From assembly GCA_902809935.1 (NCBI GenBank), contig LR778134.1, positions 186,001-250,000 of the forward strand: a stretch of DNA of 64,000 nt, read 5' to 3'. Each line of letters begins with the position of its first letter. Position 1 is the stretch's first letter. Position numbers and translations under genes: made by a program. This DNA comes from Ruminococcaceae bacterium BL-4. GTDB lineage: Bacteria > Bacillota > Clostridia > Oscillospirales > Acutalibacteraceae. The notes under the pieces are model-generated. The model did not search any database. It was given only the letters and a program-made list of their open reading frames with translations, and was not told the origin of the DNA. Positions 16,475 to 56,305 of this stretch are shown piece by piece.

Positions 16475-17878
16475 TTAGATTCTCCAGCTAATTTCTACGG
16501 ACTCCCCATCAACCCAGATAGACTCTATCATGGTAGATAATAGTAATCTTTTTTTCTCTAGAGAATCGGAATTCAGAATATCATTTGCAGATTTTAAAGC
16601 CTTTATAAATTCTTCCTTCTGTCCATTTCCTGTCCCTTGCTGTACAGAGATAAGTTTCTCCTTTACGGTATCCCGCTTGCTCTGCAGCTCCTGCAGTCTT
16701 GAAGATATTTGCTCGATCGGAATTGTTCCTACCTGGTACAGATCAAGCATTCTGGATATCTGCCGATCCAGTTCTGCAAGTCTATCTGACAATGCTTTGG
16801 TATCGTCTTTGGTATTCCTAGGCTTTCCAACCACTTCATTGAAATAATCTTTATCATACTGCAAACGATTTATTTGTGCAATTACCGCCGCATCTAATTC
16901 CTCAATTTTGTAATTGGTGTTTTTACAATTTGGATCAGTTATAAACTTCTGACTGCTCTTAGAGCGTGAATAGCATTTATAATACCCGTGATTAGCGCTG
17001 TATCTCGCCCCGCAGCGAGCACAATAGACAAGACTGGATAAAAGATACCCTGCCCGAAAAGGTGTTTTCTGGGCGCTGGTTTTGGATTCTTCTCGTGCTG
17101 ATGAGGTGAGCAGCTTTTGTGCTTGATTATACTCGGCATCTGATATGATGTGATCCTGTACTCCATCGTAAGACTTTCCCTTAAACTTTACTTTTCCAAT
17201 GTACACACTGTTTTTTAAAGTATTAAGGACAGCGCGTGACGAATTCCAACCACCATATTTTTCGTGCATATCCTTATAAATCGAATTGATGGACTCTCCG
17301 GTCAAAAATTGCCGATAAACCTCTTGTACTTGCTTTGCCATAAATTCATTTACAACTAATTTTCCGTCGATATAGTCATATCCCCGCGGAGCATTTCCCC
17401 CACCGTGAAAATATCCGGCTTTGCTGCGACCGATGCGCCCCATTGTAAAGCGCTCCGTAATCTGGTCTTTTTCCAACTGTGCAAAAACAGACAGTATTCC
17501 AATCATGGCGCGCCCAAACGCGGTTGACGTGTCAAAATTTTCTGACATGCTGACAAATTCCACACCATTCGCGATAAACTCATCCTCTATTAAAGTCAGT
17601 GTATCTTTCTGAGAACGGGACAGGCGGTCAAGTTTATAGACTGCTACCATATCAAGCCGGTGTAAGCGTATATCTTTTAGCATCTGCTGCAATGCCGGAC
17701 GATCAGTATTTCCGCCGGAAAATCCGGCATCCGGATATATTTTATAGATGCTCCACCCTTTGGCTTTACAGTAAGCTTCTAGGCGCTCTTTTTGTTCTGG
17801 TATAGAATAATTTTCTAGCTGATTCTCCGTTGACACACGGACATAACACCCTACACGGGAAAACGACGATTGCTGCAA
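16475..17878 (-). CDS. int: large serine recombinase (phage integrase)
   Basis: 467-residue site-specific recombinase. An N-terminal resolvase domain carries the nucleophile Ser16 in YVRVSTENQ and the YKLDRLSRS motif. Then come a recombinase domain (RAGYLLSSLVYCARCG) and a zinc ribbon with Cys pairs near residues 304-307 and 319-340, and a coiled coil near residues 360-410. The start is TTG at 17878 after AGAGGTGAT. Its stop is 19 bp from the attL core, the typical position. A recombination directionality factor is not recognisable but should exist among the small early genes. Confidence 0.96.
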   Translation of the reverse strand: MQQSSFSRVGCYVRVSTENQLENYSIPEQKERLEAYCKAKGWSIYKIYPDAGFSGGNTDRPALQQMLKDIRLHRLDMVAVYKLDRLSRSQKDTLTLIEDEFIANGVEFVSMSENFDTSTAFGRAMIGILSVFAQLEKDQITERFTMGRIGRSKAGYFHGGGNAPRGYDYIDGKLVVNEFMAKQVQEVYRQFLTGESINSIYKDMHEKYGGWNSSRAVLNTLKNSVYIGKVKFKGKSYDGVQDHIISDAEYNQAQKLLTSSAREESKTSAQKTPFRAGYLLSSLVYCARCGARYSANHGYYKCYSRSKSSQKFITDPNCKNTNYKIEELDAAVIAQINRLQYDKDYFNEVVGKPRNTKDDTKALSDRLAELDRQISRMLDLYQVGTIPIEQISSRLQELQSKRDTVKEKLISVQQGTGNGQKEEFIKALKSANDILNSDSLEKKRLLLSTMIESIWVDGESVEISWRI

Positions 17879-19214: not shown

Positions 19215-19334
19215 ATGGATATTAATTCAGAACAAATATTAAAAGAAAAGCTGAGACAACTTAATGAGTCTCAGCTTTTAGAATTTATTTGTTTTCTTGA
19301 TCTTTTGAAATCAGGTAATCCAGATAATCAATAG
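19215..19334 (+). CDS. micro-protein, candidate SOS-induced antirepressor
   Basis: 39 residues, start ATG with GGGAG about 10 bases upstream and a strong LexA-box promoter 50 bp upstream. Its sequence (EQILKEKLRQLNESQ then FLDLLKS) resembles the C-terminal tail of the adjacent repressor (EQAMQKFNNLSPEEQ then YLDYLIS), with the same EQ...L...Q...LDxLxS layout. Its last 50 bp overlap the repressor gene on the opposite strand. I infer that the peptide could mimic the repressor's multimerisation segment and disrupt it. Too short for family assignment; expression is unproven. Confidence 0.6.
   Translation: MDINSEQILKEKLRQLNESQLLEFICFLDLLKSGNPDNQ
19246..19279 (-). terminator. terminator of the repressor gene, inside the microgene
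   Basis: AAAAGCTGAGAC pairs perfectly with GTCTCAGCTTTT over an 8-base loop. On the minus strand it is followed by CTTTT, so it ends repressor transcription. On the plus strand the T run is short, so the microgene transcript may pass through it. Confidence 0.7.
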
Positions 19335-19602
19335 CTTGCTTTTGCTCCTCTGGAGAAAGATTATTAAATTTTTGCATGGCCTGTTCTGTAAGGGACGGGC
19401 TTTTTTTATTATCAAAAAGATCACTTTTTGATACATTTAAAATTTTTGATATACTCTCAACAAGCCCCATTCTCGGAAGTCTAGTCCCATTTTCCCATGA
19501 AGAAATAGTCTTATCTGATATATTAAGCCTTTTAGCAAGTTCTGATTGAGTCATTCCTTGTTTTTCTCTTAGCTCTTTAATCTTATTTCCGAAGTCACTC
19601 AC
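19285..19602 (-). CDS. phage repressor, XRE family (CI-like)
   Basis: 105 residues: helix-turn-helix at about residues 17-38 (MTQSELAKRLNISDKTISSW) and a short helical C terminus. There is no LexA/CI-type peptidase domain, so RecA-stimulated self-cleavage cannot be the induction route. The start is GTG at 19602 after AGAGGTGAT. The promoter at 19627-19655 has an operator in its spacer, which implies autoregulation. It diverges from the Cro-like gene in the classic switch layout. Confidence 0.88.
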   Translation of the reverse strand: MSDFGNKIKELREKQGMTQSELAKRLNISDKTISSWENGTRLPRMGLVESISKILNVSKSDLFDNKKSPSLTEQAMQKFNNLSPEEQKQAIDYLDYLISKDQENK

Positions 19603-26125: not shown

Positions 26126-26641
26126 ATGGAACCAATGACGCCGGATCAGATCAAGAAACTTTTGCAGAAATATTACGACATTCCTCAAATGATTGATGAA
26201 GAGCTGGCAACGATCCGGCACTGCCAGGAAGAACGAGGAAAGTTTTCTCTTTCCTCCCCTATCCTCTCCGGGCTGCCGACCGGCAAAGGCAGCACCAGCG
26301 ATCAAACTGCCAACGCTGCCATGCGGGACAACACCATCTATTTTGACCGGCAGATTGAATCCTGTCAAAAGCGCATTGCCAGCCTTCAGGAACAGCGGGA
26401 CTGGTGCCAAGTGGCATTAAGCACATTGGGACGAGCTGAACGAAGAATTCTAGAGTTGGCGTACATGGGTCCGAAAGATCGGCGTCAGCGTGAAAAGTGG
26501 AGTGGGCGTCGTCCAACATGGAAAGAAATCGCCGCGGATACAGAATACTGTGATGCCGGATGGGTCAGTCAAAAAGCAGATTCTCTGTTGAAGGATTTGT
26601 CTGATTTATCTCCACAGGAGGTCTTTAGCTGGATAAGCTGA
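26126..26641 (+). CDS. late transcription regulator, sigma-like (ArpU-type)
   Basis: 171 residues, mostly helical. The C-terminal half resembles sigma region 4-like phage regulators: LGRAERRILELAYMGP, then a basic segment and TWKEIAADTEYCDAGWVSQK as recognition helix region. Such proteins (ArpU, RinA types) switch on phage late genes. It is the last early gene and is followed directly by an array of repeats and a promoter, its likely target. Confidence 0.8.
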   Translation: MEPMTPDQIKKLLQKYYDIPQMIDEELATIRHCQEERGKFSLSSPILSGLPTGKGSTSDQTANAAMRDNTIYFDRQIESCQKRIASLQEQRDWCQVALSTLGRAERRILELAYMGPKDRRQREKWSGRRPTWKEIAADTEYCDAGWVSQKADSLLKDLSDLSPQEVFSWIS

Positions 26642-26643
26642 AA

Positions 26644-26699
26644 ACACTCCCAATTTCTCGATGTTTCTCTTTATGATTCAAAGTTTCTCATGATTTCTC
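26644..26699 (+). repeat. helically phased TTTCTC array, putative late activator site
   Basis: TTTCTC occurs at 26654, 26664, 26684 and 26694, with partial copies ACACTC at 26644 and TGATTC at 26674. All six lie exactly 10 bp apart, on one face of the helix. The array ends where the -35 box of the following promoter should be, and that box is not recognisable. Confidence 0.7.
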
Positions 26700-26720
26700 C
26701 GGCATCAATGTGTGCTAACA

Positions 26721-26770
26721 TATAATTACGGAATTTCGCAGAGAGGGGCTTTCAAAAGAAGCTCCTTTTT
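26721..26770 (+). promoter_or_regulatory. late promoter -10 and leader terminator
   Basis: TATAAT at 26721-26726 lacks a -35 match. About ten bases after the predicted start, a stem (AGGGGCTT with AAGCTCCT, 26744-26766) ends in five T. This would end transcripts at about 35 bases unless bypassed, or it ends the early operon. Confidence 0.6.
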
Positions 26771-26824
26771 CTATACCGTTTTTAGTGAAGGCCATGCGGG
26801 TCTCTGACAAAAAGGAGATTACAC

Positions 26825-27559
26825 ATGGAAAACTATATCAATCATATTTTTAACGAAGACTGCATCGCTGGAATGCACCGGCTGCCAGATCACAGTGTAG
26901 ACATGATCCTCACCGATCTCCCGTATGGAATCACGGGGTGCCGCTGGGACAGCCTTTTACCGTTTGATCAGTTATGGGAACAGTATCTCAGAGTCATCAA
27001 AGATCACGGTGCAATCTGTTTAACCGGATGCCAGCCTTTCACGACGCAGCTTATCAGCAGTCAACCAAAACTTTTTCGATATTGCTGGTACTGGTCCAAA
27101 AATCAACCGACCGGATTTGCCAACGCAAAAAGAATGCCCCTGCGATGTATTGAAGAAGTGTGTGTATTTTATAAGCACCTCCCCACTTACAATCCACAGG
27201 GACTAATCATTTTGGACAAACCAATTAAAAGAAGTGGTGAAAAGGTTCCTGCCCATGGAGACTGCGTCTATCGTATGGACAACAGCCTTTCCCATGACAC
27301 GGAAACCTGCATTGTTCATTATCCGCGTCAGCTCCTAGAAGTCAAATGTGAACGCGGCCTACATCCAACTCAAAAGCCGGTAGCACTATTTAACTACCTG
27401 ATTCGGACTTACACGAACCCGGGCGAACTCATTCTCGACAGCTGCTGCGGCAGCGGAACGACGGCGGTCGCTTGCAAACAGTCCGAACGGAATTTTGTGT
27501 GCTGGGAATTTGACCGGCAGTATTACCAAACAGCTATAAAACGATTACAAGACAAATAG
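26825..27559 (+). CDS. DNA methyltransferase, beta class (N4-C/N6-A)
   Basis: 244 residues. The catalytic motif is DLPYG (motif IV) near the N terminus, then the target-recognition part, then HPTQKP and the SAM-binding LDSCCGSGTTAVA (motif I) near the C terminus; the IV-then-I order defines the beta class. No restriction enzyme is adjacent, so it probably protects phage DNA against host restriction or marks packaging/regulatory sites. AAAGGAG precedes the ATG. Confidence 0.93.
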   Translation: MENYINHIFNEDCIAGMHRLPDHSVDMILTDLPYGITGCRWDSLLPFDQLWEQYLRVIKDHGAICLTGCQPFTTQLISSQPKLFRYCWYWSKNQPTGFANAKRMPLRCIEEVCVFYKHLPTYNPQGLIILDKPIKRSGEKVPAHGDCVYRMDNSLSHDTETCIVHYPRQLLEVKCERGLHPTQKPVALFNYLIRTYTNPGELILDSCCGSGTTAVACKQSERNFVCWEFDRQYYQTAIKRLQDK

Positions 27560-28856: not shown

Positions 28857-29237
28857 ATGGCCAATGAAAAGAATTTAAAGCGTTTAAGCCCGAGCGAAGC
28901 CCGAGAATATGGCTCAAAAGGTGGCAAGGCAAGTGGTGAAGCCCGCAGGGCAAAAAAGACGATGCGCGAGTATGCTGACTTCTTACTTTCCCTGCCTGTT
29001 TCTGATCGGCGCAAGTGGAACAAGCTATCTCGTGCCGGTGTTCCACCTGAGGGCTGCGACAATAAGATGCTGGTAACTTTTGCACTGATGCAAGCCGCAC
29101 AGTCAGGAGATGTACAGGCGGTTAAAGAGCTGCGGAACCTGATCGGAGAGGACAACCTGCAATCATCGTCTGCCGAAGATCGCATCGCAGATTATCTCAA
29201 AGCCTTGGAGGATACTGTAAAAAATGAGCCTAAATAA
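28857..29237 (+). CDS. terS: terminase small subunit-like protein
   Basis: 126 residues: a KGGKASGEARRAKKTMRE basic motif (the KGG stress-type segment common in these proteins), then a helical part. Its position directly before the large terminase, overlapping it by 14 bp, and its length fit the DNA-recognition subunit of the packaging motor. Confidence 0.75.
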   Translation: MANEKNLKRLSPSEAREYGSKGGKASGEARRAKKTMREYADFLLSLPVSDRRKWNKLSRAGVPPEGCDNKMLVTFALMQAAQSGDVQAVKELRNLIGEDNLQSSSAEDRIADYLKALEDTVKNEPK

Positions 29238-30426
29238 CCTATATCACACAAAGCAGCAAGAAGTCCTGCGCCGAGCTATGACGCAGGACTATTTTATGCT
29301 AATCAATCACGGTGCCAAACGATCCGGTAAGACGGTTCTGGACAACGACCTGTTCCTTTACGAGCTTATTAGAGCGCGCAAAAACGCCGCTGCTGCCGGG
29401 ATTTCAAACCCACAGTACATTTTAGCTGCCGCTGACATCGGCAGCATACACCGCAATATACTCAATGAGCTGTCCGGAAAATATGGCCTCGAATTTCAGT
29501 TTGATAAGTTTAACCGCTTTCAGTTATTCGGCGTTCAGGTGTGCTGCTTCGGCCATTCAAAAATTAATGATATGGGACGCATTCGAGGCATGACGGCCTG
29601 GGGCGCGTATATCAACGAAGCATGCGTTGCAAATGAGGAAGTCTTTGACGAAATCAAGTCCCGGTGTTCGGGTGACGGTGCGCGCATTCTCATGGACACG
29701 AACCCCGCAGATCCGGCGCACTGGCTTAAAACCGACTACATCGATAAAGCCGACGAAAAGACGATCGTGCAGTACTCATGGAGGCTCGATGATAACACGT
29801 TTCTATCTGATCGATACCGGCAGAACATTAAAGCCTCTACCCCGTCCGGTATGTTTTACGACCGCGATATTAATGGTGCATGGGTATCGGCTGACGGTGC
29901 GGTCTATCCGGACTTTGACGAGCATGTTCATTATATCAGCATGGATCAAGTTCCAATTGACGAGATCAGCCGCTGGTTCGTCGGCGTTGACTTTGGCTGG
30001 GAACACTGGGGCGCTTTTGTACTGATCGGCCGCACAGAGGACGGGCGGTATTACCTTGTCCGGGAATGGTCGGCACAGCACCGGCACATCGACAACTGGA
30101 TTAAGATCGGGCAATCGATCAAGGATCAGTACGGTGATATTAATTTCTACTGTGATTCTGCACGACCGGATTTAATTCAGCAGATGCGCGTTGCAAGACT
30201 GCGGGCAATTAATGCCCGGAAGGACGTACTTGCCGGTATTGCCGAAGTCGCAAGCCTCTATAAGCAAAAGCGACTGTTTATCGTGCGGGAAAATGTCAGC
30301 AGGTTCCCTCACGAAATCTATAGCTATGTCTGGAAAAAAGGCACTGATGAGCCGGTAAAGATTGATGATGACGTGCAGGACGCAATCCGGTACGCCATTT
30401 ACAGTGATAAAAAATATGGGAGGTGA
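29224..30426 (+). CDS. terL: terminase large subunit
   Basis: Packaging ATPase-nuclease, 400 residues. Walker A is INHGAKRSGKT (about residues 28-38), the ATPase half includes GAYINEACVANEEVFDE as Walker B region, and the nuclease half shows VGVDFGWEHWGAF and YCDSARPDLI with the metal aspartates. Overlaps the small subunit and the portal genes. Confidence 0.95.
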   Translation: MSLNNLYHTKQQEVLRRAMTQDYFMLINHGAKRSGKTVLDNDLFLYELIRARKNAAAAGISNPQYILAAADIGSIHRNILNELSGKYGLEFQFDKFNRFQLFGVQVCCFGHSKINDMGRIRGMTAWGAYINEACVANEEVFDEIKSRCSGDGARILMDTNPADPAHWLKTDYIDKADEKTIVQYSWRLDDNTFLSDRYRQNIKASTPSGMFYDRDINGAWVSADGAVYPDFDEHVHYISMDQVPIDEISRWFVGVDFGWEHWGAFVLIGRTEDGRYYLVREWSAQHRHIDNWIKIGQSIKDQYGDINFYCDSARPDLIQQMRVARLRAINARKDVLAGIAEVASLYKQKRLFIVRENVSRFPHEIYSYVWKKGTDEPVKIDDDVQDAIRYAIYSDKKYGR

Positions 30427-34206: not shown

Positions 34207-34301
34207 CATACAAAAATTGACCGGCCCGAAGTCGCGAAACTACGGGGCAACGGAGGATCGGAACCTCGTTAAAAACGTGTGTTGTGAAAGGAGCACAAAA
34301 T

Positions 34302-34915: not shown

Positions 34916-35953
34916 ATGCCTGAAACATTTTTAGGATTTCCTTTTGACGAGGAACTATTTCACAATGCCTGGAGTGAAGCTCCAGACCCGGTACGCACCG
35001 CTATTTTAAACAGTGGTGCAATGGCACAGGACGGTGTAATTGCACAGCAAATCAGCGGAAGCGGAAATTTATACACCGTGCCGTTTTATAACATTCTCGA
35101 CGGTGATCCTGTTAACTATGACGGTCAGACCGACATTACCGCTACTGAAACAGACGGCGGCAGTCAAACCGGTGTAGTCTATGGCCGTGCAAAAGGTTTT
35201 ACTGCCAGGAATTTTGCGGCAGAATTAGTCGGGAATGACCCAATGGGACATATCGCACAATCTGTAGCGCGATATTGGCAGAAACAGCGCCAGGCTGTCA
35301 TGCTGCAGATTCTCAATGCTGCGATGGGCGTTACCGGAGCCTCCGGCAATGCCAAGAAGTGGCAGGATAATCATGTAGTGGACTTAAGCAGTGCGACCGC
35401 CACCCCCTACGTCATCGGAGATACAGATCTAAATAGCCTTGCGACCGAAGCACTTGGTGACAACAAGTCGCTGTTTTCGCTGGTTATTATGCATTCCAAT
35501 GTCGCCAAGACTTTGGAAAACAAACAACTGTTAGAGTATTGGAAACAGACCGATGCAAATGGAATTCAGCGGCCGCTTAATTTAGGATCTATGAACGGGT
35601 ATACCGTAGTGATCGATGATGGTGTGCCGGCAGTGGCCGTCGGCGGAGACGGCGCCAATAAAGGGCTCATAAAATACACCACTTATCTTTTGGGCGGTGG
35701 TGTACTGCGGACAGCAAATGCCCGTTTGGATCATCCGAACGACACCCAGTATGATCCGTCCAAAAACGGCGGCCAGGAAACCTTATATACCCGTATCCGC
35801 GAAACCATTCATCCGAATGGATTTAGTTTTAAAGTGCCTACCTCTGGCTGGAGTGAATCTCCTACCAATCAACAGCTTGGCAATTCCTCCAACTGGGCAA
35901 TTCAATTCGACCCCAAGGCAATTCCAATGGCCGCACTCATTACAAACGGCTAA
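34916..35953 (+). CDS. major capsid protein
   Basis: 345 residues, HK97-fold coat protein of the Gram-positive siphovirus type. Segments typical of the family are GRAKGFTARNFAAELVGNDP, the IAQSVARYWQKQRQ spine helix and SGNLYTVPFYNILDGDP. Position after the scaffold and before connectors agrees. AGGAGGTAAAT precedes the ATG. Confidence 0.93.
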   Translation: MPETFLGFPFDEELFHNAWSEAPDPVRTAILNSGAMAQDGVIAQQISGSGNLYTVPFYNILDGDPVNYDGQTDITATETDGGSQTGVVYGRAKGFTARNFAAELVGNDPMGHIAQSVARYWQKQRQAVMLQILNAAMGVTGASGNAKKWQDNHVVDLSSATATPYVIGDTDLNSLATEALGDNKSLFSLVIMHSNVAKTLENKQLLEYWKQTDANGIQRPLNLGSMNGYTVVIDDGVPAVAVGGDGANKGLIKYTTYLLGGGVLRTANARLDHPNDTQYDPSKNGGQETLYTRIRETIHPNGFSFKVPTSGWSESPTNQQLGNSSNWAIQFDPKAIPMAALITNG

Positions 35954-39174: not shown

Positions 39175-42100
39175 ATGGCTATTGATTTAGGCGTGGCAGA
39201 AGGCCATATTGACCTTGATTTTTCCAACTTACAGAAAGGCGTCGCTTCCACAGTGGGACAACTGCAGCAGCTCGAACGCACCGGAAATCTTACAGAATCA
39301 CAGCTACGGTTGATGGAAACGGCTACTAAAGGCGTTGGTGGTGTATTTAATGACGCCGCGCAAAAATCCAAACGCCTGTCAGCTGAAATTGAAATTGCAA
39401 AGCAAAAGACAGAGGCTTATAAGACCGGCATATCTGGATTAAATGAAATTATCAAAAAATCCCAGACCGAGTATGATAAAACCGGAAAAAATATTGATGC
39501 GCTTTCCAAAAAATACGAGGCATCAAAAGCAAAAGTGCAGGATGCTGCAAACGCGCACGGAAAAGAGTCGGAAGAATACCAAAAAGCGGTAAAAGCTTCT
39601 CAGGAATTAAATAACCAGCTTTTGCAGGAACAGTCCCGACACGCTTCTCTAGGGCTCGAAATTGATGGTTCAAAGGCCAAAATCAATGAATATGCGGCCG
39701 CTATGAACAATACACAAGCCGATATTCAGGGGATGGAACGCGAACTTAGCATCGCAGAGAGCAGAATGCATGCTTTCGGCATGGCCGCCGAAGGTGTCGG
39801 AAGCAAAATGCAAAGTGCGGGACAAACAATGAGCAAAATCGGTGGGACTTTATCTCTTGCCGTTACAGCTCCTCTTGTCGCTGCCGGTACTGCTTCTTAT
39901 AAATGGGCGGAGAGTGCAGAAACCAGCTATGCCAAAGTCAGCACTATTGTGGACAGTACAAAGCTTTCTTACGATCAGCTTAAAACTGGAATCACAGATG
40001 CCTCCAATCAGACGGGCGTGGCCGTAACAGATTTAAATGAAGCTCTTTATCAGTCTATTTCCGCGGGTGTGGATTCCGGCAAAGCCATTGGCTTTACAAC
40101 TGATATGGTAAAACTGGCCCGGGGCGGTTTCACCGATACGTCAAAGGCCGTCGACGTTGTAACTTCGGTACTCAATGCCTATGGCTTGAGTGCAGACAAT
40201 GCCTCTAGTATCAGTGACAAACTGATCACTACACAGAATATCGGCAAAACGACCGTTGACCAGTTGGCGTCCAGTTTAGGTCGCGTAATCCCCACTGCCA
40301 AAGCCAATAACGTTGCGATTAATGATGTGTGTACTGCAATGGCTATCATGACAAAACGTGGAATTGATACTGCAGAAGCTACCACCTATTACAACTCCAT
40401 GCTCAATGAGCTAGGTAAAAGCGGCACAGACGCGGATAAGGCTTTACGCAAAATGTCTGGGGAAGGATTTTCCGATCTTGTTGCCAAAGGTAAACCAGTT
40501 ACGGAAATCTTGCAAATGCTGCAGGACTATGCCGAAAAAAGCGGAGAAAAGCTAAGCGATATGTTTGGCAGTGTGGAAGGTGGAAAAGCAGCCCTTTCTA
40601 TCATGTCTGACAGTGGCAAAGAATACAATGAAATCTTGCAGCAAATGGCAAGCTCAGCAGGTGCTACACAAAAAGCTTTTGATACAATGAACGCAAACCC
40701 TGCTATACAAATGCAAATAAAATTAAATGAGCTTAAAAATAAAGCCATTGAAGTTGGTGAAAAGCTGATCCCATATGCTGAAAAAGGGATCAGTACTGTT
40801 GGTGGACTAGTTGATAAATTTGACGAATTATCCGATTCCCAAAAGGATGCCGCTGTTAAGGCCGCCATATATGTCGCAGCAGGCGGTCCGGTTCTAAAGG
40901 TATTGGGGAAAATGGTATCTGGTGTGGGAAAAGTGATCTCTAATGTAGGTGGATTAACGCAGGCCTTGTCAAAAGCCAAATCTGCGCACATTAGCTTGTC
41001 AGCTGCCGCAGAAACTTTGAGCGATAAAAATGCAGGGCTGGCTAAGGCGTTAGGCAGTGTTGTATCTCCTGCGGGCCTGACTGTAACCGCAATTACTGCT
41101 GTAGGCGTGGCAGCCTATGCAGCTTATCAAAAGCAGGAAGAAGCTCACAACAAATTCATGGCCGAGTGCGATGCCCTATCTCAAAAGATTGCCCAAGAAG
41201 CAGAGTCCTGGGAAAAATTATCTATCAGCACACAGGCAAATGTGTCCGCCAATAACACAGAATCTGATAATCTGCGTAGTCTGGAATCCGAGCTTGATAA
41301 TCTTGTCGATGCGAACGGCCGTGTAAAGAACGGGCAAGAAGATAGAGTCAATTATATTCTAAATGAGCTTAATGGCGCATTAGGTACCAATATCTCCGTG
41401 GAAGATGGCGTTATACAAGAATACAACAAAGAAAAACAAAGCTTGGAAGAACTTATTCAGGCACAAAAAAATAAAGCCAATCTTGATGCGTATCAGTCAA
41501 AATACACCACCGCGCTGCAGGGAATTGCAGATGCGAGGAAAGACGCGACAGAAGCACAGGACAAATTAAACAGCGCAACAGATAAATATAACGGTCTGAT
41601 TAAGGAACAATCAGACCTAGGAGCCAAAGGGGGCGAGGGGCTAGACGCCTCGCTTACCAAAAGGATCACAGATGCTCGCTCAGAAATGGAAGCGGCACAA
41701 AAAACTGTCGGAGAAACAAGCTCAGTCGTTGGTAAGTATCAGCAAACGATAGAAAACTATAATGACGCTGTTGGTGCAAGTGCGGAAAAAAACTACAATC
41801 TATCCAATACCTTTTTAAATCGCCTCACCTTATCTTATACAGCGGCAGGTAATGCTACAAAGCAACAGCTGGAAGATCAGGTAAATTCCACAGAAAGCAG
41901 TTTTGAGGACCTAAAGCAAAGATACGCCGATGGAGATAACACTGTAACGCAGCAAATGGTGTCAGATGCTCAAGACTTAGCCAACAAAGCAAAGGCAGAG
42001 TACCGTAAAGCCGGCGGAGATGCCGCAGAAGGCGCGGCACTGGGATTTGATGACGTTAAGTCCACCTTAAAAAGTCTTGGGATAGAAATATCTGATGCCG

Positions 42101-50220: not shown

Positions 50221-50517
50221 TCCATTTCAGACCTGCCATGCAGAAAAACAATAAGCAGATTTTCCACCCTGTTTCGTCAAAACGCATGGTGAAGTGACAG
50301 TATAGGTTCTATAATTTGGATATAAATTCAAACTGTCTTTTGGTCAAAATGATAAGCAAAAAATTGCCGTAATGGAATATTTTTATGTACGAGTTTAGAA
50401 GATAGAGTCCCAATGAAAGCAATAAAGGCAATTTGTGTTTTGGGAAAAAATTTATTCTTTGCAACAAATATTACTTTGTTAACATGTTTTCAACGATATG
50501 GAAAGTGGGAAAATTTA

Positions 50518-53500
50518 ATGGCTGACAACAATCAATTTATAAAATCAGATATCGGGGCTCAGTCTGCTTGGAAAGGCTTTTCATCTCAAACTCTTTATAT
50601 TGCATCAAGAATTGTTTCAGATACCGATGATAATTGCTTTTACCCAGAAGATATCGAAGATTTGGTTGTTAAAAATAAAGGCAAAGTAATCGAGGCAGTC
50701 CAAATCAAAAATGTATCCGCTCCCCTTACAATTTCCCATCTTTCTTCTACGAAATCTTCTCTTTCTGGTGAAGGCTTTTTTAATAGAGTTTGTAGCTTAC
50801 ATGCGCAATACCCAGAATTCAATATAGTGAAAGTAGTGTATTTCTCTTCGTTGGGCGACGAACTTAAAGGAATTTCCCAAGGTGACGAATTTTATTGTAA
50901 ATCTGTAAAAGAAAAACTTATTAAAAGTCATAAGCTAACTGCAAAAGATGCAGAGTGGCTTGTTCTATCATTAGTTTTTGAGAAAGTTGACATTTTAACA
51001 CTTGAGCAAGCCATTTACTCGCAAATTAAAGAGTATGTTGAAACTATGGCTGCTCCCGAAATAGCAAAATCGTTACTAATTCAGCATGTTTCAGAGTTGT
51101 CAAAGTCAAAAGGATATATAAGCAAAAAAATTTGGCAAGAGCAAATCCACAGCATTGGAACGGACATTTCATCAATTGATGGCTATTTTAAAGAGTATAA
51201 CAAATCATTAGTTAGATTAAGCGAATTAGGAACCGGAAAAAGTGAAAACCAATTAAGATATGAATTCAATCAAGGTATTTCTACGAATCCTGACCATATT
51301 CGTTACGGAATTGATTTCAGAAGAGAAAAGTGGCTAAATGCTATTGCTACCTCAATGAAGAAAACAAATACTGTTATCGTTAAAGGGGTTTCTGGCCAAG
51401 GAAAAACAGCTATTTGTTATAGATACTTGCTTGAAAACTTCCCTGAGGAGCTAGTGTTTTGCGTTCGACATATTGCTTCAGAGCAACAAGCAGAGAATTT
51501 AGTTGCAGCGTTAAGTGGAATTGCGAAACACACACAAAAATTAGCTGTATATATCGATGTCAATCCTGGTGAAACAAAATGGGGTTTATTATTGCAAGAA
51601 ATGAGCATGAGGAAAATTAATATTCCTTTATTGATTTCAATAAGGGAAGAGGATTTTAACCTAACCCCAATTAACGGCAGCATATTTGCTTATCAGTTAA
51701 TCGAAGTTCAATTAACAGAACCTGAAGCTAAATTAATTTATGATCATAGCACTGCCGTAATGCCTCATAGTAAACATAGAACATTTGAGGAAGCTTGGAT
51801 CTCCTTCGGTGGTAAAGGTCCTTTGATTGAGTTCACTTATTTTTTAACTAATAATCAAACATTAGCAGAGCGTTTGAGAGGACAAATAAATAATTTGCTT
51901 TTAGAAAAAGTTCCTGATTCATGGTTCGATATACTAAAAGTCATTAGTCTTGCCGGGAAAGTTGGCGGCGCAGTAGCTGTAAACAAGTTGAAAAAAGTTA
52001 TTAAATGCGATAATTTTATGGCAGCCATACAGCGTTTTAAGGATGAATATCTCATTAAAGGAATTTCAAGCAACACCTATATTGAAGCTCTCCACCCTGT
52101 CCGCGCAACCATATTGTGCGAAATATTAAAATCATTAACTAATGACGAACCAATAGTTGACTTGTTGAATTGCATCGGATGCATTGATGGACACAATCTG
52201 CAATATTTATTAATGGATTATTTTACAGAATATCCATACCGCAAGCAGATAATTAATGATATAACCAACGTAATTCAAAATGATTGGGCTTCGTTTGCCG
52301 GAGTCGTTAAGGCCATGTTGTGGCTTGATGTTAAAAGATATTATGAAAGTAATGCTCAAGTAATCTCAAATCTAATAAAAGAAAAAGGAAAAGGTTGGCT
52401 GTGCATGATGCCAACGGATATTTCTGGTTTAATTATGCCTAATGAGTTTATGCTCGAAAATCTTGTAAAAAACCATTTTTCTACTACAAGTGGTAAAGAT
52501 GCACTCATCCATGCTATTGAGAATTTGAAAGCATCCTTGTCTTCATTTAGCATTGATTTTGAAGCAACTGATGCATTTATTTTATCTGCCACTATACCAA
52601 CATCGGAAATTAAAAATGACAATGATTGCGATGCCCTTGGTTACAGTTTGTTTTGGTTAGCAAAAAGGAATCGGCTATTACATGAAATCAAACTAAGTGA
52701 AAACTCTTGGATCGTTTTGCTACACTCAGATTTTCAAGTCTGTGCAAATGCAGCGCGCGGAATATATGAGCATGAATTGCTGAGAGGCTATTATGAAAAA
52801 GTTAAAAGCAGTCTGCTTGACAGATTTCTAACAAGCTTCTGCACAATAATCTATTCCGAATCCAAAGATGATGTTGTTTGCAAGTTTGTTCCTCCAGTTT
52901 TTGCAGACAACAGTGATACCCCAGCATTTAAAAATTTCAATTATTATTGGAAAATCAAAGCACTCAACATTTTGCAGCAACTTTTTCCAAACAAAGAATA
53001 TATTGAAGTTGAATTGCTTGGCATAGACTTGTTTTCAGATTTATCAATTGAACCGATGGATTATAAAGGTCGCATTTCCAAATCAAATCGCTATGATTCT
53101 TGGATTACTGAAATAAATTCATGGTTTATTTCAAGGGTTTATTATAAATATAGGCCTTCATCTTGGGATGAATATGTGAAAAAGATTGAGAAAATTAGAA
53201 TAACATCAAACGCTGTGATTTCCGATGCAATATCATTGGTGGATAACTTTTACAAGAAACAACGTTGGAACCACGATCGTTATGATAAGGTACATACTGA
53301 GAAGGTTATGCTATCTTCCCTAATTTCAAAAGATTTATTATTGCCGGTATCAGTAGTCGATAAATATTGCTTGTATAGAGAGAATATGGAAAATGATGCC
53401 GACAAAGAAAATAAGAACGTAATCGCACCCCTGTTGTATACAAAATATAAAAAGTTAAGGGCAGAACTGTCAAATGGTTATGACTCTATTGAGAAATTTT

Positions 53501-54558
53501 TTAAAAATTTTACAGATGTGTTACTCAGAAGAATTAAGCACACTTCATTAGAAGGTATCAACTTAAATTTAGGACTGCTAAATCTGTTTAATGCATTAGA
53601 ATCAATTTCAAAAATGCAACATGAGTTCGATAGATTTTTTCAAGGCTATCGCACATTAGAAATTGGATTTAATGAAGTTGAAATAGAAAACCTAAATATT
53701 TTGCTGAATATATGGCATGATGTTATCGAAAAAGCCCCTAAAGGCTATCAAATCGCATATAATGCAAAACAAAAATATCGAAAGGCAATCAAGCTTGTTG
53801 AAAGTTTGCATAGTGTAAAATCTATCAATGATATTCCAGTTATATCAAATGGAAACAAACTGTTTTTCTTAAAAAAATTTGATGCAAATAATAGTGAAAT
53901 GATTTCAGAATGTGATTTTATAGCCGAAACAATACATAAATATTTTTTCAATAGTATTGATCAATTTTCAAGCGAAAAATGGCTTATCGATTCCGCCGGA
54001 TACAAATTTATTTACATCCCATTATATAATGATATACCAATCAACATTGGCTTTTCTATTTCAAGCTTACGTGTGTTTGGAAATCGGATATCCAATGCTT
54101 TGTTCCCAGCGGCAATTGACAAATCAATTTATGAATATTTAGGCATTGATTATACAATCATTGAGAGGTGTAATTTACTAAATGCTTCATTTGGTACATT
54201 CAAATTGCTTATACATCAATACAATGAAATTGCAGCTTTTAATACAGGCAACTCTTGTCTGTATGTAAACGGAATAAGCAATTATGTCCAAAGTTTTGTT
54301 AATGAAATGGGTAAACAAGCCTCTAACCTAGCAAAACAAATAGATATTTTAAATACATTAAGAAAAGTGGATGATAAAATCGTAATTGAATGCATATCTG
54401 TAATTTCAGACTGCATTAGCGGAATAGATAATCTGTTTGATCTTGTTAGAGAGTTTAAGCCCATTGAGGAATTTGAAACCCTTGTACAAAATGCAAATGG
54501 AGCATTCGCTGTTCTGCAACCATACATTGTGAAAAAATGTGAACATTCATCTCATTAG
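50518..54558 (+). CDS. STAND NTPase with N-terminal Cap4/DUF4297-like nuclease domain
   Basis: 1,346 residues. N terminus: GAQSAWKGFSSQTL, Glu47-Asp48 and Glu59-x-Gln62-x-Lys64 form the PD-(D/E)XK pattern of DUF4297 nucleases. STAND core: Walker A GVSGQGKT (290-297), Walker B LAVYIDVNPGE, sensor LLISIREEDF. The 900-residue C terminus has no recognised repeats and is the presumed sensor. This layout is that of Avs-type anti-phage proteins. AT-rich. I took ATG 50518; an upstream in-frame ATG at 50413 lacks a ribosome site. Confidence 0.8.
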   Translation: MADNNQFIKSDIGAQSAWKGFSSQTLYIASRIVSDTDDNCFYPEDIEDLVVKNKGKVIEAVQIKNVSAPLTISHLSSTKSSLSGEGFFNRVCSLHAQYPEFNIVKVVYFSSLGDELKGISQGDEFYCKSVKEKLIKSHKLTAKDAEWLVLSLVFEKVDILTLEQAIYSQIKEYVETMAAPEIAKSLLIQHVSELSKSKGYISKKIWQEQIHSIGTDISSIDGYFKEYNKSLVRLSELGTGKSENQLRYEFNQGISTNPDHIRYGIDFRREKWLNAIATSMKKTNTVIVKGVSGQGKTAICYRYLLENFPEELVFCVRHIASEQQAENLVAALSGIAKHTQKLAVYIDVNPGETKWGLLLQEMSMRKINIPLLISIREEDFNLTPINGSIFAYQLIEVQLTEPEAKLIYDHSTAVMPHSKHRTFEEAWISFGGKGPLIEFTYFLTNNQTLAERLRGQINNLLLEKVPDSWFDILKVISLAGKVGGAVAVNKLKKVIKCDNFMAAIQRFKDEYLIKGISSNTYIEALHPVRATILCEILKSLTNDEPIVDLLNCIGCIDGHNLQYLLMDYFTEYPYRKQIINDITNVIQNDWASFAGVVKAMLWLDVKRYYESNAQVISNLIKEKGKGWLCMMPTDISGLIMPNEFMLENLVKNHFSTTSGKDALIHAIENLKASLSSFSIDFEATDAFILSATIPTSEIKNDNDCDALGYSLFWLAKRNRLLHEIKLSENSWIVLLHSDFQVCANAARGIYEHELLRGYYEKVKSSLLDRFLTSFCTIIYSESKDDVVCKFVPPVFADNSDTPAFKNFNYYWKIKALNILQQLFPNKEYIEVELLGIDLFSDLSIEPMDYKGRISKSNRYDSWITEINSWFISRVYYKYRPSSWDEYVKKIEKIRITSNAVISDAISLVDNFYKKQRWNHDRYDKVHTEKVMLSSLISKDLLLPVSVVDKYCLYRENMENDADKENKNVIAPLLYTKYKKLRAELSNGYDSIEKFFKNFTDVLLRRIKHTSLEGINLNLGLLNLFNALESISKMQHEFDRFFQGYRTLEIGFNEVEIENLNILLNIWHDVIEKAPKGYQIAYNAKQKYRKAIKLVESLHSVKSINDIPVISNGNKLFFLKKFDANNSEMISECDFIAETIHKYFFNSIDQFSSEKWLIDSAGYKFIYIPLYNDIPINIGFSISSLRVFGNRISNALFPAAIDKSIYEYLGIDYTIIERCNLLNASFGTFKLLIHQYNEIAAFNTGNSCLYVNGISNYVQSFVNEMGKQASNLAKQIDILNTLRKVDDKIVIECISVISDCISGIDNLFDLVREFKPIEEFETLVQNANGAFAVLQPYIVKKCEHSSH

Positions 54559-54767
54559 TCCAGTTCCAATTAAATTTATGAAGGGCTGAAATAAAGTCGT
54601 TATTCTTATAATAGATTACCCTTGCGACATGTAAAAGCATTTCAAAACTTCTATTTTTGATAAAAAAGTCCTTGACAATTCGTCTCTGGTGTTTTGTGCT
54701 CTGATATTTTCATATTGCAGATGATCTTTTTGACTTTGTACTTAGCATCTTTCCATTAAAAAGGATC

Positions 54768-54806
54768 ACTCCCAGCTATTCTTTTAGGGCGGCTCTGGAG
54801 TTTTTT
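54768..54806 (+). terminator. terminator of the STAND gene
   Basis: ACTCCCAGC pairs with GCTCTGGAGT (one bulge) and is followed by six T. It separates the STAND gene from the downstream two-gene unit. Confidence 0.7.
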
Positions 54807-54807
54807 G

Positions 54808-54916
54808 TTGTTATTATGTCTAATTGTGTTATTGAAATCATGTTGAATCATGACGAACTTTTGTATAAAGTGTTCCATTTTATGGGAATTAAGAGTATTA
54901 TTAACGCAATAAAAAA
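54808..54916 (+). repeat. 109-bp diverged direct repeat, copy R2
   Basis: Partner of R1. It ends 107 bp before the membrane-protein gene, so each putative defence unit is preceded by a copy of this repeat. Confidence 0.85.
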
Positions 54917-55023
54917 TTCATGTTATAGTAGTTAGAGAAAGTTTACATAACAAATACTCCAGCGTGATTTGAAGTAAAGTTGTAAGTCATTGTATTATAT
55001 AAAATGAAAGGAGATAAAAACCT

Positions 55024-55455
55024 ATGGCTATTAACGAAAAGCATTTGGAATTCCTTCAAAACAATATATCAAGAATGAATCAATGCTCATTTCAAATGAA
55101 AGGTTGGGCGATAACTATTGTATCTGCACTCTTAGCTATGTTTGCATCGACTATCGACAAAGTGACACCTGGAAATAAAATGTTTATATTTGTAGCTATT
55201 GCTCCAACTATATTATTTTGGATTTTGGATTCTCTGTATTTATCAAATGAGCGAAAATTGATTGCGATATACAATGATGCTGCAGAAATAACAGACATAC
55301 CGAAAAGAATAAAAGTCAAAAACTATGAGATTCCTTTAAAGAAGTATAAAGGCTGGCAATATTCGCTTATTAAAGCAATGCTATCCCCTTCGGAACTTGC
55401 TTTATATGGATTGATTATTATTGGACTTGCTTTATTTGGATCATTTTATAAATAA
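55024..55455 (+). CDS. three-helix membrane protein, SLATT-like, paired with TIR gene
   Basis: 143 residues. Membrane helices near residues 23-41 (GWAITIVSALLAMFAS), 51-70 (MFIFVAIAPTILFWIL) and 120-140. A charged loop (LSNERKLIAIYNDAAEI) follows the second helix. The layout resembles SLATT-type membrane proteins that act as effectors next to TIR or SMODS genes. AAAGGAGAT precedes the ATG; the TIR gene follows after 43 bp. Confidence 0.65.
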   Translation: MAINEKHLEFLQNNISRMNQCSFQMKGWAITIVSALLAMFASTIDKVTPGNKMFIFVAIAPTILFWILDSLYLSNERKLIAIYNDAAEITDIPKRIKVKNYEIPLKKYKGWQYSLIKAMLSPSELALYGLIIIGLALFGSFYK

Positions 55456-55498
55456 ATCTATTTTATGTAAATCGTTTAAAGGAGTGTGCAAAAATAAT

Positions 55499-56305
55499 AT
55501 GTATTCAAAATTTAATTATACGCCTGGGCCTTTGTACAACCCTGAAATTAATGGACATTTGGAAAAAGGATCTGGTTTATATTCTGATGCGAGTGAAAAA
55601 GCAAGAAAATGTTTAGAAGACTTTATTTATAAAAATGGAGATATAAATGGGTCGGCGTTGCAAGCACATTGGTTCAAATCAATAGATGCGGATGTTTTTA
55701 TTTCTCATTCGCATAATGATATTAATAAAGCTAAAGCATTATCGGGCTGGTTGTTCGATACGTTTGGACTAAAAAGCTTTATCGATTCATGTGTATGGGG
55801 ATATTGCAATGACCTGTTGCAACAAATCGATGATAAATATTGTAAGAATTCAGATGAAAAAACATATAATTATCAGCTGAGAAATTATACGACAAGTCAT
55901 GTACATATCATGCTATCTACCGCGTTAACAGAAATGATCGATAAAACAGAATGTATTTTGTTCATTAATACTCCAGAATCAATCACACTAGGAAATGAGA
56001 TTCACGATATTAAAGAGAAGGGTGCAGAAACAAACTCTCCATGGATATACCATGAATTAGCAATGACAACAATGGTTCAGCAAACTGAGCCCGTGAGAAA
56101 ACGACAGATAAGTGAGTCTAAATTTGAGGCATCCAGTAAAATCCCCACTTTCGATTATCATGTTGAAAAGTATCTGCGAAATATGACTTCATTATCTGAT
56201 TATGACCTTAATAATTGGAAAATTTATTGCCAAAAGAATAATTTACATGAAAATCATTCTTTAGATGGATTATATTTAATAAAGGGATTCATCAAAAAAA
56301 CATAA
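55499..56305 (+). CDS. TIR-domain protein, putative defence NADase
   Basis: 268 residues. TIR core: DADVFISHSHND (63-74), FGLKSFIDSCVWG, CILFINTP and SPWIYHEL, where Glu186 is at the place of the catalytic Glu of TIR NADases. The N-terminal 60 residues are not recognised. It is co-directional with the membrane protein gene, and probably forms a two-gene unit. The AAAGGAG site is 13 bases from ATG 55499, a bit far. Confidence 0.8.
   Translation: MYSKFNYTPGPLYNPEINGHLEKGSGLYSDASEKARKCLEDFIYKNGDINGSALQAHWFKSIDADVFISHSHNDINKAKALSGWLFDTFGLKSFIDSCVWGYCNDLLQQIDDKYCKNSDEKTYNYQLRNYTTSHVHIMLSTALTEMIDKTECILFINTPESITLGNEIHDIKEKGAETNSPWIYHELAMTTMVQQTEPVRKRQISESKFEASSKIPTFDYHVEKYLRNMTSLSDYDLNNWKIYCQKNNLHENHSLDGLYLIKGFIKKT

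Follow-up and report, generated by a model that had tools for sequence, protein, structure and literature searches.

A repeat array at 10-bp period as the predicted operator of a divergent Ltr-type activator at a prophage late promoter

Six short direct repeats at a spacing of exactly 10 bp lie between a regulator gene and a promoter-like sequence in a prophage of Ruminococcaceae bacterium BL-4, and the question that they raise is what this row of repeats does and why its geometry is so strict. We addressed it in the window, that is, the whole stretch of 64,000 nucleotides that was analysed, and in related loci. The reading that we favour, with a probability of roughly 0.87 as judged from sequence comparison, is that the locus combines the late promoter of a temperate phage with the operator of the Ltr-type activator encoded just upstream, and that the recognition helix of this activator and the array form a specificity cassette. 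The Ltr superfamily of late transcriptional regulators was reportedly defined by Quiles-Puchalt et al. in 2013 and comprises RinA, Ltrb, LtrC, ArpU and Alt.

The array and its place in the prophage

The window holds a prophage in which an early module is followed by the regulator gene, the array and then the late genes.

16475-17878, minus strand: integrase
19285-19602, minus strand: repressor
26126-26641, plus strand: predicted late-gene activator of 171 aa, final gene of the early module
26644-26699, plus strand: predicted activator operator array, six units at an exact 10-bp period
26825-27559, plus strand: N6/N4 DNA methyltransferase, first gene of the late operon (Pfam PF01555, E 7e-23)
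29224-49283, plus strand: late genes, with TerL at 29224, portal at 30423, scaffold at 34284, major head protein at 34916, tape measure at 39175 and endolysin at 48327

Genes for RecT, an exonuclease, replication initiation and a resolvase come before the regulator, which is placed as in Ltr systems, as the final early gene directly before the late/packaging operon. At the right end of the prophage (50413-56305) there is a cluster resembling defence genes, with a 1381-aa protein that gave a weak Cap4-nuclease match below the cut-off, a PDC-M50A-type protein at 55024-55455 and a ThsB-like TIR protein at 55421-56305 (E 5e-76). The ORFs at 39175 and 50413 share a length of 1381 aa, which we rejected as a coincidence.

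The first-pass annotation of this DNA described four exact TTTCTC and two partial hexamers at a strict 10-bp period, and these are present as claimed, with a period of exactly 10. The units run in the order ACACTC (26644-26649), TTTCTC (26654-26659), TTTCTC (26664-26669), TGATTC (26674-26679), TTTCTC (26684-26689) and TTTCTC (26694-26699), the first and fourth being degenerate. The window has two copies of the pair TTTCTC-N4-TTTCTC, both within the array, compared with 0.05 expected from shuffles. Moreover, when all six-unit arrays with periods of 7–20 were scored on both strands of the 64 kb, this array ranked first with 30 of 36 points, and the best period-10 score in 40 Markov-simulated 64-kb sequences was 27. 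Across the 2.34-Mb genome, the TTTCTC pair was found only at this array and at one isolated match elsewhere, a CGGAG array was found only at the second prophage (see below), and neither a satellite nor a second target of the window regulator was seen.

Arrays and promoter core in related phages

Relatives of the locus were taken from viral contigs and genomes of the same family, the close ones being 70–96% identical and the distant ones about 45–53%. In nearly all of them an array lies between the stop codon (or the last codons) of the regulator gene and the -10 element, with units such as TTTCTC, CCGGAG, TGCCGG, CCGGCG, CTGTACG, CCGGAC, CCGCCG, CTTACG and others. Period 10 was the unique best of periods 7–16 in 28 of the 31 relatives, and at 21 dereplicated loci the mean z was 4.6 at period 10 and no more than 0.1 at every other period. 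The same period-10 peak was found at 14 distant PHROG 36 loci (mean z 2.65). Exact TTTCTC is missing from most close relatives, and an array with another unit is often in place. The expectation that the same array would accompany homologous regulators was borne out for the period-10 array, which most relatives carry, but not for TTTCTC; because close homologues often swap this hexamer for another unit, an absence test must concern the array and not the motif.

L040 and L027, two loci that appear to be rearranged, lack an array, and the arrays of L052 and L065 are weak. In L048 the array seemed absent at first, and was then found pushed downstream by an insertion, with the unit CCGGCG that its helix predicts. 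In this locus (L048/L084, IMGVR_UViG_3300043932_000086), the insertion of several hundred bases parts the regulator gene from the array, and array and promoter are intact beyond it. A different arrangement is seen in L013, in which the array lies partly within the regulator gene, so that the repeats encode the C-terminal tail of the protein (NPEFSGVFRSKVE).

The promoter and leader of the window contain the following elements.

26711-26721, plus strand: probable extended -10 element TGTGCTAACAT, TGTGnTAnnaT in relatives
26721-26726, plus strand: TATAAT, a second -10-like hexamer, close family only
26730-26738, plus strand: conserved initially transcribed motif GGAATTTCG, with 20–28 of 31 relatives agreeing per position
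26745-26770, plus strand: intrinsic-terminator-like hairpin, GGGGCTTT-CAAAA-GAAGCTCC followed by TTTTT, at about +18 to +43

The first-pass annotation had placed the promoter at the TATAAT of 26721 and noted that it has no -35 box. The hexamer is present and no TTGACA-type -35/-10 pair was found at the window promoter, but the extended element TGTGCTAACAT, which lies 5 bp upstream of TATAAT and overlaps it by one base, is better conserved. Its core TGnTAnnaT is the best-conserved promoter element (26713-26721 in the window, where the TG before it completes TGTGCTAACAT), and the TG, TA and T positions are nearly invariant in the 31 relatives. At the distant PHROG 36 loci TGnTAnnnT is present and the second TATAAT is absent, a pattern that is supporting rather than decisive because these loci were chosen by the presence of the first -10 element. 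An extended -10 is the usual substitute for a missing -35 in sigma-A promoters. On the evidence of conservation, the -10 element is more likely to be the extended TGTGCTAACAT than TATAAT, and since the -10 is taken in this way, transcription would likely start near 26728 rather than at 26733. This start would put the final array unit at about -34 to -29, the expected position of sigma region 4. Directly after the start, GGAATTTCG is conserved about as strongly as the -10 element.

The register between the array and the -10 element is fixed across the relatives, and this bears on the suggestion that the repeats are not an operator and instead serve as iterons or a packaging site (a replication origin, or pac/cos). 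Short direct repeats near packaging genes would fit such a role, and iterons are also direct repeats. A fixed register to a -10 element would not be expected of them, nor would a unit that covaries with the helix of a transcription regulator, and the place of the array is conserved in loci with different downstream sequence (L001, L006 and L010), so that we consider a role in replication or packaging highly improbable.

The regulator and its covariation with the array

The window regulator matches PHROG 36 (E 3e-10) and PHROG 248 (E 3e-5), as do the annotated Ltrb (P3681) and ArpU (P7571). These late-activator matches support the earlier proposal of an activator-dependent phage late promoter. 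The same proposal had a sigma-like late regulator encoded just upstream, and here the PHROG matches are joined by a homologue, L043, that exceeds the cut-off of the Pfam Sigma70_r4 profile (PF04545; 32 bits vs 24.1); the window regulator itself gave no match above the cut-off of the Pfam sigma-region-4 profile. An AlphaFold2 model (20-sequence input, pLDDT 81.5) has two long N-terminal helices (aa 6-39 and 60-99) followed by a four-helix C-terminal domain, with the recognition helix at aa 144-161, and the C-terminal domain appears to resemble region 4 of sigma-70. A fold search of the PDB gave no significant match and a list dominated by coiled coils, a sequence search of the PDB gave a chance-level match only, and no match to the window protein was found among named phages (INPHARED). 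The protein has a pI of 5.9, and its C-terminal domain alone is basic (pI 8.1). Ltr proteins are described as small and basic, with about 130 aa, a descriptive trait (PMC13123087) from which the window regulator departs with 171 aa and its pI. On homology and context we nevertheless place it in the Ltr superfamily of phage late activators, as what appears to be a new divergent member.

Within the regulator gene, one segment changes in step with the array.

26531-26596, plus strand: segment coding for the turn and recognition helix (aa 136-157), exchanged along with the array

The similarity of arrays between loci tracked similarity in the turn and recognition helix after control for the first 100 residues (partial Mantel r 0.67, P 0.0002, 29 loci), also in the dereplicated set (r 0.50, P 0.0002, 19 loci), and the N-terminus given the helix added nothing. 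Nearest neighbours chosen by the helix had an array similarity of 0.817 vs 0.803 for those chosen by the N-terminus, a gap that is small because close relatives share both. Individual loci show the same dependence. The second prophage of the genome (L008), which carries a CCGGAG array, matches the window closely on both sides (92% identity in aa 1-100, 92% in the methyltransferase gene, 96% across promoter core and leader), whereas the helix region reaches only 42% and the array 41%. With flanks at 92–96% and both helix and array at about 41%, the two appear to have been exchanged together. L001 retains 86% identity to the window in the helix and 79% in the array, vs 49% for its promoter core and 38% for the sequence downstream. 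In L010 and L017 the aa 101-135 sequence of the window, through the first HTH helix, is combined with the recognition helix and the TGCCGG array of L004. Three distant loci (L003, L013 and L039) all have an SESxTYxxAR helix and CGGAG units, with N-termini that are 35–48% identical. L045 runs counter to this: its helix is that of L053 but its array is that of L043, a mismatch that may reflect recent recombination or a switch that no longer works. We also considered the rule that co-resident prophages always differ in their cassette, which holds here and in G054 and fails in G173, where both L010 and L017 carry TGCCGG, so that co-resident prophages need not differ.

These comparisons establish the array, its period, its fixed promoter register, its covariation with the regulator and the joint replacement of the two. 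The array unit appears to follow the turn and recognition helix of the regulator and not the rest of the protein, and regulator and array would act in related phages as an exchangeable lock and key. The row of repeats is almost certainly, to judge from these patterns, the landing site of the activator encoded just upstream. The earlier idea that the repeats form the operator of the regulator on one face of the helix is in agreement with this, given a period-10 array in most relatives and a unit that tracks the recognition helix. Repeat specificity is said to have been assigned to the C-terminal part of Ltr proteins by Quiles-Puchalt et al. in 2013, so the principle is probably known already; in the present family, C-terminal specificity for the repeats appears in the form of covariation.

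One-turn phasing would also be expected if the array were curved DNA or an UP element that aids RNA polymerase directly, with no sequence-specific activator, and several relatives have A/T-rich spacers, for example CCGGAGTTTTCCGGAGTAAA. Curvature leaves unexplained why units containing G/C change together within each array and track the recognition helix, and the spacers of the window itself have no long A-tracts. We regard this explanation as unlikely, if somewhat less so than a replication or packaging role, and prefer an operator read by the activator.

The close relatives amount to a natural mutational series, in which near-identical phages differ only in the helix and five to six operator units, and which always keeps one helix turn and one register. 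With this series, direct tests become possible of how a sigma-4-like activator encodes its specificity, of the one-turn geometry and of the exchange of regulator-operator pairs, and the series could supply activator-promoter pairs that are mutually independent.

Activation model, leader hairpin and known systems

We infer binding, one protomer per unit, RNA polymerase contact and activation in the following form. The product of 26126-26641 would be an activator of the Ltr superfamily that contacts DNA through a domain like sigma region 4. Its protomers would line up head to tail on one face of 26644-26699, each on a 10-bp unit of its own, with the final array unit in the place of a -35 element. 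The bound activator would recruit or stabilise host RNA polymerase at the extended -10 TGTGCTAACAT, which has no -35, and activation of the promoter would turn on the genes for packaging, structural proteins and lysis. Residues 136-157, the turn and recognition helix, would read the unit sequence, and helix and array could thus move between phages as one cassette in conserved DNA.

Downstream of the start, the leader hairpin may have one of several roles: termination of early transcripts, protection of the mRNA, or a second control point as at lambda pR'/tR', where the Q protein permits read-through. An extension of the activation model rather than an alternative that excludes it is a double gate, in which initiation would depend on the Ltr array and elongation on the hairpin, read-through being made possible by the activator complex or another phage factor. 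By analogy with lambda, this is conceivable and points in its favour come from the relatives. Terminator-like hairpins, each with its T-run, were found in 15 of 23 dereplicated close relatives vs 1.0 in dinucleotide shuffles, and in 8 of 18 distant ones vs 0.15, at a nearly constant distance of about +15 to +25 and with stem sequences that vary yet still pair; covariation was judged on the individual stems and not on pair counts, since the MAFFT leader alignment is off by one at the window stem. Similar hairpins can be seen by eye downstream of the ArpU (P7571) and Ltrb (P3681) regulators of Streptococcus phages. Against a double gate, the hairpin could simply terminate early transcription or protect the late mRNA at its 5' end, it is absent in L001, L010, L011, L016, L044 and L065, a terminator scan did not call the window hairpin, and its folding z-score is modest (-2.1). 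On balance we hold the double gate to be a minority possibility, and its more specific form, in which the sigma-4-like oligomer on the one-turn array initiates transcription from the extended -10 and then, itself or through a partner, takes polymerase across a conserved intrinsic terminator at about +18 to +45, to be slightly less probable still. If two gates were in fact used, many Gram-positive phages would combine activation with Q-like antitermination in late control, and specificity would reside in an exchangeable helix-array cassette with a readable recognition code. The conserved terminator-like hairpin of the leader in any case poses a question on how Gram-positive phages control their late genes, and in the open-licence literature we found no paper that addresses this question.

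No Rfam family was found in the promoter and leader of the window, nor in ten related loci except for a tRNA. Between the hairpin and the first late gene lies a second conserved stretch (26790-26818), GGCCATGCGGGTCTCTGACAAAAAGGAG in the window and GCCGTGCGGGTTCCGACGGGAAGGAG in relatives, and L001, L010, L057 and L065, which have other downstream genes, carry a different post-leader element, TATGCCGGTAAGG-GCGTGAGG-TAGCCGGTA; neither has an Rfam match.

Late activators that bind direct repeats, Ltr proteins included, are already known, among them RinA (PMC9867676) and ArpU and Ltrb (PMC5601072). Ltrb (DUF1492) and ArpU share the PHROG 36/248 profiles of the window protein and its position before packaging genes, their likeness to it being at profile level only; by the same statistic, the ArpU locus has period 11 and the Ltrb locus no clear array, in contrast to period 10 in the window. 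According to the passage of PMC13123087 that cites Pedersen et al. 2006, the binding sites of Alt in Lactococcus phage TP901-1 are four imperfect direct repeats that span -76 to -32. Like the window regulator, Alt is encoded just before a late promoter with direct-repeat sites, and it has a weak match to PHROG 36 (E 0.005); unlike it, Alt belongs to another family (DUF722, PHROG 2198). The DNA downstream of Alt has an 11–12 bp periodicity, and its spacing of about 11 bp with about four units differs from the strict 10 bp and five to six units of the window type. The Ltr protein of Staphylococcus phage phi13 is needed for the late promoter P23, which cannot do without a block of repeats upstream of its -10 (PMC13123087), so that this family IV, LtrC-like protein resembles the window system as a late-promoter activator with upstream repeats. 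The binding mode proposed for the window activator is that of Streptomyces BldC, a small regulator that forms head-to-tail multimers on direct repeats about one helical turn apart (PMC5859096), but BldC has a MerR-like winged HTH unrelated to sigma region 4 and is no phage late activator. Compared with these systems, what appears to be new here is a divergent family with a strict 10-bp register and five to six units, its series of helix-array swaps and the leader hairpin.
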